Shown: in pieces, positions 37,407 to 38,605 of the stretch
How positions within the stretch are numbered: position 1 is the first letter of the stretch
How the letters are laid out: each line of letters begins with the position of its first letter
Assembly (NCBI GenBank): GCA_947625125.1
Contig: CANQNF010000001.1
Coordinates: forward strand, 124,001-188,000
Source: an uncultured Clostridia bacterium
GTDB lineage: Bacteria; Bacillota; Clostridia; Oscillospirales; Ruminococcaceae
Direction: 5' to 3'
Length of the DNA stretch: 64,000 nucleotides
Program-made: the position numbers and the translations under genes
Notes under the pieces: model-generated
Databases searched by the model: none
What the model saw: only the letters and a program-made list of their open reading frames with translations
Told to the model about the DNA's origin: nothing

Positions 37407-37594
37407 AAAAAAATCCGCTTTGCCGTTGTCTACAGACATAAAACCCGCACGAAGCAGGGTGGGTAAAACGCCCCGGATGTTTCGCGCTCCCTTCGTCCGG
37501 CATGAGCCGGGAGGTCTGCATCCCGCGTCCGGAGGACGAATCCCTTAAATTATGTGTTGGATTTAAAAAACTGTAGACTATCGAACAAAGCAGA
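37407..37594 (-). ncRNA. Candidate 6S-like RNA
   Basis: On the minus strand the ends TCTGCTTTG (37594-37586) and CAAAGCGGA (37422-37414) pair. An inner helix GTCTACAG/CTGTAGAC follows, then a large mostly unpaired bubble, then a terminal stem closed by TTCGTCC/GGACGAA. A T7 run follows the 3' end (37413-37407). Length (about 188 nt), closing stem, central bubble and poly-U end match 6S RNA architecture. The call rests on structure only. It lies between spoIID and a DUF1292 gene, and no ORF fits the gap. Confidence 0.5.
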
Positions 37595-37628
37595 AGCTTT
37601 ATCGTTATTATTTCCGTTTTCGGGGGAG

Positions 37629-37982
37629 TTATTCCTCTCCGTCCTCGCCGTCGTAATCGTCGCCGTCGAATTCCTCGTCATCGCCGTCGCCGCCGTCATA
37701 GAAATTTTCAAGGCGCTTTAAGAATATGCTCCCAATGCGATAATATTCCTCGTCGTCGTCGATGGTGATAAGCCCGGAATCGGGGTCGCTCGGGTCCTCG
37801 ATCTTTAATATGACAAGGTCGGAGCTTTCCTCAAGGCTCTTTGAAGGGTCGTCGACGTAGGGGACAAGCGCAAAATAGAGATTTTCGCCGTCCTCAAGGT
37901 TATCAAGTATCTCAAAGGTCTGGTTCACGCCGTCCTCGTCCTCAAGCGTTAAAAGCTCCGGTTCGAAGTTATCGTCCGCCAT
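37629..37982 (-). CDS. DUF1292 (UPF0473) protein
   Basis: A 117-residue acidic cytoplasmic protein. ELLTLEDEDGVNQTFEILDNLE and YFALVPY match the DUF1292 family, common in Firmicutes and of unknown function. The last 20 residues are nearly all Asp, Glu and Gly. It is divergent from the unusual transcript unit at 38125-38605. Confidence 0.85.
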   Translation of the reverse strand: MADDNFEPELLTLEDEDGVNQTFEILDNLEDGENLYFALVPYVDDPSKSLEESSDLVILKIEDPSDPDSGLITIDDDEEYYRIGSIFLKRLENFYDGGDGDDEEFDGDDYDGEDGEE

Positions 37983-38124: not shown

Positions 38125-38153
38125 TTGACATTTCACAAAAAGTATGTTATATT
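38125..38153 (+). promoter_or_regulatory. Strong promoter of the mini-ORF transcript unit
   Basis: TTGACA and TATATT with a 17-base spacer in an AT-rich stretch. Transcription should begin near 38160. Confidence 0.8.
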
Positions 38154-38159
38154 ATAGAC

Positions 38160-38578
38160 ACAGAAAGAGATAAGACAAACCGAGGCAGACAACCTCACCA
38201 AAAAACAAGTCAGTAATAAATCCTTAGAAAAGGGGACGATTCCAATGAAGAGGCATCGTGAACAGTAACAAAAAACTGCTGAAAGAATGTGATTCTCATG
38301 AAACTCGCAAGATCCTGGATTTAAAACCGAAATAAACCGAAAGAGGTGAGTCCGGCATACAGTTAAGGATTTCTTCAGAAAGATTCATACGACAAAAGAC
38401 TTTAGAATAATCCCACGGAGATGATTCCGATGAATGTTATCAGTGAAAACAAACACAAAATTCTATAAAAGCTTTTGAAAGGCGTGGATCCAATGAACAG
38501 GCGAATGACCGCATAGCGGTTGAATCAAGAATTACAAAAAATTTACATATAAATAAGGAGCAAGAAATTGCTCCTTTT
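38160..38578 (+). other. Transcript unit with five repeated RBS-start-mini-ORF segments
   Basis: There is no normal gene between a consensus promoter and tandem terminators. Five imperfect repeats fit GAAAGRNGTGATTCCNATGAA. Each has a purine tract, GATTCC or a variant, and a start-like codon leading a tiny frame: MKRHREQ (38245-38268), MKLARSWI (38298-38324), MNVISENKHKIL (38430-38468) and MNRRMTA (38493-38516). In the third repeat the start reads ATA (38357, 17 codons), and a GTG at 38346 gives another short frame. Repeats are 53-75 bases apart. The unit may encode micropeptides or be a structured or sponge-like RNA. No known RNA family was recognised. Confidence 0.6.
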
Positions 38579-38605
38579 TATTTTGCCCGAAAGGGGCTTT
38601 TTTAA
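38555..38605 (+). terminator. Tandem terminators of the mini-ORF unit
   Basis: AAGGAGCAA-gaaa-TTGCTCCTT plus T-run (38555-38580) is followed by GCCC-gaaa-GGGGC plus TTTTTT (38585-38603). Confidence 0.85.

Follow-up and report, generated by a model that had tools for sequence, protein, structure and literature searches.

The stretch of DNA analysed here (64,000 nucleotides in full, the window) carries a short transcription unit at 38125-38605 that had been described in a sequence-only reading as running from promoter to terminator without an ordinary gene. That description was borne out: the promoter matches the consensus at 11 of 12 positions, the first terminator has a 9-bp stem, and the ORF listing contains no ORF of 60 aa or more across 38125-38605. 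The same reading had reported five imperfect repeats, which are present where it had placed them, with frames of 7, 8, 12 and 7 codons (found as MKRHREQ, MKLARSWI, MNVISENKHKIL and MNRRMTA) and with no ATG in the third element. It had judged, correctly, that the initiation region rather than the peptide is what is repeated. The window unit with its five repeated initiation regions is confirmed as real.

The repeats fall into three kinds of element. Kind I consists of GGAG, 4-5 bases, TCC, one base and ATG, and opens an ORF of 1-3 codons or longer. Kind II reads GGAGTGATGN...ATG and opens ORFs for peptides of about 8-13 aa, such as MKLARSWI. Kind III is AAGGNGTGAGTCC, with the start codon absent. 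The features of the locus are as follows.

37408-37599, minus strand: 6S RNA, behind the DUF1292 gene and on the same strand (RF00013, 59.9 bits)
37629-37982, minus strand: gene for a DUF1292 protein, the divergent conserved neighbour (PF06949, E 3.8e-13)
38125-38153, plus strand: promoter TTGACA-N17-TATATT with an extended -10 (TGTTATATT), 11/12 consensus, TG before the -10
38230-38268, plus strand: element 1, kind I, AAGGGGACGATTCC-A-ATG; ORF MKRHREQ*, ATG at 38245
38281-38324, plus strand: element 2, kind II, GAAAGAATGTGATTCTC-ATG; ORF MKLARSWI*, ATG at 38298
38339-38366, plus strand: element 3, kind III, start-less, GAAAGAGGTGAGTCCGGCATACAGTTAA
38416-38468, plus strand: element 4, kind I, CGGAGATGATTCC-G-ATG; ORF MNVISENKHKIL*, ATG at 38430
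38477-38516, plus strand: element 5, kind I, GAAAGGCGTGGATCC-A-ATG; ORF MNRRMTA*, ATG at 38493
38552-38584, plus strand: intrinsic terminator, 9-bp stem (38555-38576) plus T run, from the terminator scan
38585-38604, plus strand: second short terminator-like hairpin plus T run, seen by eye and absent from the terminator scan output

About 420 transcribed bases lie between promoter and terminator. Two terminators had been proposed; the first was found by the scan and the second by eye only. The core of element 3, GTGAGTCC at 38346, has no ATG behind it. ORFs of mostly 1-13 codons, as in these arrays, are below the size normally considered in annotation.

Conservation of the array and its neighbours

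Absence of the repeats from close relatives, which the sequence-only reading had named as an outcome that would count against it, did not occur: all but one of the 31 genus genomes carry the unit (30 of 31). Blastn against 60 genomes, the source genome among them, gave matches in 30, of which 29 belong to the genus of 31. The matches in G006, within the genus, and G056, outside it, cover the terminator only and were rejected as units, and the units of G011 and G012 were recovered via the DUF1292 neighbour, itself found in 29 of the 31 genus genomes. A regular expression for the promoter, TTGACA-N17-TAT(A/T)NT, matched in 30/30 genus units. The crude terminator search gave a match in 28 of 30 genus arrays, a count that is not a clean test because at least six of the matches (G010, G016, G017, G018, G022 and G028) lie past the array end.

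About 13 of the 30 units share the five-element layout of the window: ten measure about 430 bases, and three are enlarged. The remaining units span about 600 to more than 2000 bases with more elements; G014 carries the first two elements three times in tandem. The ORF of element 1 has 7 codons in 7/11 units and reads MKR* in 4/11, with TAA, TGA and TAG all used as stops. Comparison of 11 units further showed that the ORF of element 4 reads MNVNKHKIL, and that of element 5 MNRC..., in most relatives.

The array is present in many bacteria of one order, gut Oscillospiraceae included; it varies in length, being longer or shorter in further genera of the family and in two of the order's other families. 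The element pattern was searched in a collection of 84,980 genomes and gave 28 stretches; viral contigs gave 0 matches to it, and phage carriage of the array was rejected on that count. L120, from another genus, is a tandem array of MDR, MN, ME, MAH and MR mini-ORFs. Within the family, a sequence-only model built from 40 elements matched 210 of 396 genomes at the threshold of E 0.5, at which many matches are due to chance; two or more matches on the same strand within 1.5 kb occurred in at least 30 of the 396 genomes, representing at least 14 genera (hand count among the matches listed). The exact pattern was too strict for the order (3/394 genomes), and model R1 was used instead, matching 43 of 345 genomes of the order sample at E 0.02 with about 7 expected by chance. 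Among ten order loci examined, L186 and L192 (both f24, outside the family) have DUF1292 and a promoter-like site. L185 (G057:C22; f23) is a short array at a different locus, flanked by rdgB-like and mraZ-like genes as judged by eye.

Examination of the flanking genes revealed DUF1292 beside the unit on the same contig in 28 of 30 genus units. In the window, the 6S RNA is the only gathering-level Rfam match within the 64 kb. DUF1292 is divergent in 14 of 20 family array loci examined, among which Rfam found 6S RNA alone (4 loci). In 20 longer upstream stretches, picked for arrays and from genomes largely those of the 20-locus set, DUF1292 was present in 19 and 6S RNA in 11, with 10 of the 11 on the strand of DUF1292. 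The exception is the match at L203 724-934 (-) in G967, where 6S RNA and DUF1292 are on opposite strands. At L166, L167 and L179, DUF1292 is not within 1.5 kb; the longer stretches show it in G1034 and G1065, not in G841. L177, L180 and L182, which showed no DUF1292, are probably chance matches. Several genera share the gene order 6S RNA, DUF1292, array. A SAM riboswitch was found close to the array in G254 (L210 1490-1610) and G178 (L145 2595-2715).

The sequence-only reading had noted the position of the unit between DUF1292 and the sporulation genes sipL-spoIVA. The DUF1292 side of that observation stood. The sporulation side is conserved only in part: 12 of 30 genus units, the window's among them, have sipL as a neighbor, and 7 more have spoIVA without sipL, at about 5-6 kb. 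The genes downstream vary, and include sipL, lipoprotein-like ORFs and, on the opposite strand, a queA-like gene, the last two identified by eye. Linkage to DUF1292 and 6S RNA extends further than linkage to sporulation genes.

Translation of the elements and pairing with the 16S rRNA tail

A check for synonymous codon bias had been suggested for these frames. Over 15 genome pairs, single-base codon changes in kind I were 24 synonymous and 19 nonsynonymous (19.5% synonymous expected, p 1.4e-7) and in kind II 35 and 54 (21.1% expected, p 7e-5), an excess in both, and the GTG frame of kind III showed none (4 and 19, 21.7% expected, p 0.77). These p values are rough because gapped ORFs were dropped, multi-base changes (11 in kind I, 38 in kind II and 9 in kind III) were set aside, and there is some dependence among the 15 genome pairs. 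Since synonymous changes are in excess, comparison supports kinds I and II as translated micro-ORFs, and the micropeptide array that had been one of the early proposals is backed by synonymous change and conserved stops. The peptide MKLARSWI is found in 16 copies in 13 genomes, and the differences among them are all synonymous (CTC/CTG/CTT, AGA/AGG, TCC/TCT/TCA/TCG, ATT/ATC and TAA/TGA). In all, 34 ORFs related to MKLARSWI occur across 30/30 genus units; the rest of the genus retains the Arg-Ser/Asn-Gly part in ORF2, some with CGY and AGY codons.

Among the candidate kind I ORFs, 65 of 126 have just 1-3 codons, MA being commonest, with MN, ME and M among the others. The first longer kind I ORF shares a pattern across genera (MATAEESQFSAEAVFSGSDNLYN, MEMTEQQFSESIVCGSCEV and MEMMEEQKSESISCGSFVAGL in L144 (G254), L148 (G184) and L146 (G236)), perhaps that of a longer conserved micropeptide. 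Ile is the last residue in 42 of 113 distinct kind II candidates, a set in which an ORF can appear with more than one start and some ORFs are probably false. The kind II sequences diverge widely from genus to genus.

In 32 arrays there are 76 exact copies of the core GTGAGTCC preceded by a purine tract, versus a mean of 0.05 in mononucleotide shuffles, a comparison that is not independent because 17 of the 32 arrays were found with a model of the same core. In 92 of 132 GTGAGTCC-type elements there is no ATG, GTG or TTG at the start position, which is mostly AAG, ACA, GCA, CCN or AAA; an ATG stands behind the word in 36 of the 132. Among 50 crudely predicted genes of the window, none has TGANTCC within 25 bases upstream or a TCCN directly in front of the start. 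Kind III looks to have been kept as RNA, as an initiation region without a start codon. Were its GTG the start, the SD would be just 0-2 nt off, and the frame has no synonymous excess, yet it stops early: a stop falls within 6 codons in 79% of 77 elements, versus 44% and 23% in the other frames. This hints that kind III elements may also be read. The distance from the kind II stop to the kind III GTG is 9 nt in 31 of the 63 pairs found.

Complementarity to the 16S 3' tail extends further in the leaders of the elements than in those of ordinary genes. In the pairing model, AAGG-N-G-TGA-x-TCC pairs with 16S GGAUCACCUCCUU, with x left unpaired. Median computed energies were -10.7 kcal/mol for genes, -13.4 for kind I, -12.15 for kind II and -15.8 for kind III (50 window genes, taking the best of up to 8 candidate starts each, and 103, 50 and 83 elements); the p values overstate this contrast because the elements were selected for their motif and a single window supplied the genes. 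The start-less element 3 pairs best of the five in the window, at -19.0 kcal/mol versus -10.7 for sipL and -10.2 for spoIVA. Stronger computed pairing than at ordinary sites is what would be expected of a ribosome-titrating RNA. The tail used for these energies is a sequence that we take to be that of the 16S rRNA, on an E. coli rRNA with a Clostridia-type end; the 16S 3' end GGTTGGATCACCTCCTT was seen in 0 of the 60 genomes searched, the one-contig genome included, so the collection is probably without rRNA and the host tail was not seen there.

Among 2266 E. coli rRNA windows, none paired better with 12 sampled kind III elements than the 16S tail (-16.8, against -15.7 for the runner-up); with 12 sampled kind I elements, the tail was outpaired by several 23S windows. 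GTGAGTCC is equalled in its pairing to the tail by 0.12-0.66% of random 8-mers and, among permutations, by 0.5-3.5%; the corresponding share of random 8-mers for the kind I cores is 4-16%. The core base that the model leaves unpaired, x, is the most variable, with 22 one-base variants. T2 is second with 12, though paired in the model, followed by G1 with 10; A4, C7 and C8 have none. By eye, the elements may resemble 23S rRNA in the sense direction; an Rfam scan found no LSU match among nine loci.

A conserved fold beyond the terminator was not supported by the aligned sequences, and the new structured RNA of the sequence-only reading was rejected. The RNAalifold covariation term over 10 units was -0.04, and just 5 of 53 predicted pairs had two-sided change, two of the five involving the 3' arm of the terminator. 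Pairing is possible between the last part of ORF2 (CUGGAUUUAAAACC) and element 3 (GGUGAGUCCGG) over 38311-38356; this predicted helix has no two-sided change and lies beyond the reach of covariation because it is mostly invariant in the 10 units. A single-sequence fold was better than shuffles (z -3.41), the folded stretch including the terminator. A sequestering helix for kind III was likewise rejected, the core being paired at 0.53 with the real and 0.52 with shuffled upstream sequence (78 elements, p 0.63).

Known systems and the function of the array RNA

No Rfam 15 family falls on the arrays in the window and 20 array loci, with only 6S RNA nearby, and permissive Rfam scans of the array gave no family near its gathering score. 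A literature search, with most subscription journals outside its range, found no such RNA described, the accessible text of PMC8708949 and PMC10192219 included. Judged by its sequence, the array is a new class of stand-alone RNA, previously undescribed, in many genera of one order.

Several known systems share features with it. Leader peptides and attenuators such as TnaC and ermC have short translated ORFs with strong sites, as does the array; unlike them, the array has no constant regulated gene in the same transcript, as the terminator closes the unit and the downstream genes vary, and no mutually exclusive conserved hairpins that would covary as a switch were found in the 10 units (covariation term -0.04). 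Dual-function sRNAs with a small ORF, such as RNAIII and SgrS, are stand-alone and partly translated, as the array appears to be; the array differs in its many ORFs, its repeated initiation regions and a fold that is not supported. The kind I ORFs, an SD plus an ORF of very few codons, have the make-up of bacterial minigenes, of which lambda bar is another case. According to the accessible text of PMC8708949, very short ORFs behind a strong SD can lead to reinitiation, peptidyl-tRNA drop-off with tRNA depletion, and growth inhibition; the two-codon minigene of its authors acted in cis and did not slow growth, and the minigenes axe-txe mg2 and EHEC LEE1 sit in the leader of a gene. Like bacterial minigenes, the array has strong SDs and 1-3 codon ORFs, for which reinitiation and drop-off would be expected; unlike axe-txe mg2 and EHEC LEE1 as described in that text, its elements are lined up in a transcript that has a promoter and a terminator of its own and lacks a constant target gene.

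We tentatively favor, as the most economical, the reading that the array is a stand-alone class of RNA, a row of ribosome-binding elements transcribed from a strong promoter and ended by a terminator, working by engaging ribosomes as a trap or a tuner. Initiation itself would be the content of this bacterial RNA class. A 30S subunit would dock through the extended pairing with the 16S tail, and the docked ribosome would make a peptide of 1-3 or about 10 residues, terminate, and be recaptured by the next element, a kind III element often lying exactly 9 nt past a kind II stop. Alternatively, the 30S subunit would dock at a start-less site where initiation is impossible. In many copies, the RNA could tie up part of the pool of 30S subunits together with initiator tRNA, or of peptidyl-tRNA that is slow to recycle; the array may hold ribosomes rather than make proteins. 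The start-less sites, the frames of 1-3 codons and the strong pairing with the 16S tail fit the ribosome decoy that had been proposed; comparison between genomes backs both the RNA class and its translation, and the decoy function itself we infer. The main difficulty for a pure sponge is that the kind II peptides are conserved as peptides, beyond a sponge's need.

A narrower form of this reading, possible but held with less confidence, is that of a natural ribosome trap, a dedicated and widely conserved RNA that would titrate 30S subunits by means of rows of super-strong sites, start-less or start-stop, and be paired genomically with 6S RNA, one locus setting the capacity for both transcription and translation. 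6S RNA holds RNA polymerase, and the array would hold 30S subunits as the 6S RNA encoded nearby holds the polymerase. The two share a neighboring locus, a stand-alone form and, as proposed, titration of a core machine; the array differs in that the RF00013 model does not match it and in that its proposed partner is the 30S subunit. Because 6S RNA is a frequent neighbor, a joint role in growth transitions would be attractive, and if the array titrates ribosomes, translation gains a counterpart to 6S RNA.

Since the conservation of the kind II peptides is true, a polycistronic micropeptide operon stays alive, if somewhat unlikely. The kind II peptides and the longer kind I ORFs would be the active products, for example as short cationic membrane- or ribosome-active peptides, with strong sites for high output and with kind III coupling translation; if so, the array would be an unusually dense micro-ORF operon. 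The purely synonymous differences among the 16 copies of MKLARSWI in 13 genomes, the switches between codon families for Arg and for Ser elsewhere in the genus, the coding constraint on kinds I and II, and the terminal Ile in 42/113 distinct kind II candidates all speak for it, but 65/126 candidate kind I ORFs are of just 1-3 codons (MA, MN, ME, M), the kind II sequences differ widely across genera, and 92/132 GTGAGTCC-type elements are start-less.

Improbable, in our view, is a translation-state sensor acting in cis, in which pausing on micro-ORFs (for example at ...Ile-stop) would set RNA stability, processing or termination, and the 3' part or fragments of the array RNA would act on targets. 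The 9-nt spacing from stop to element in 31/63 pairs and the frequency of Ile before kind II stops are in keeping with it, and minigenes have been proposed as mRNA protection from RNase in the accessible text of PMC8708949. Set against it are the lack of a constant downstream gene, with neighbors that differ, the absence of covarying alternative hairpins, and a kind III without constant pairing to upstream sequence.

We give still less weight to a sponge for an RNA-binding protein, or for a partner RNA other than 16S rRNA, that would read GTGAGTCC with the micro-ORFs secondary: the word is very constant (76 exact copies) and coding constraint is absent in kind III, but the word occupies the ribosome-site position and is followed by ATG in 36/132 elements. 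A decayed or chance repeat without function is hardly credible, for although tandem duplication does alter copy number (G014 and L120), many genera have retained the promoter, the core, the stops and the synonymous pattern.
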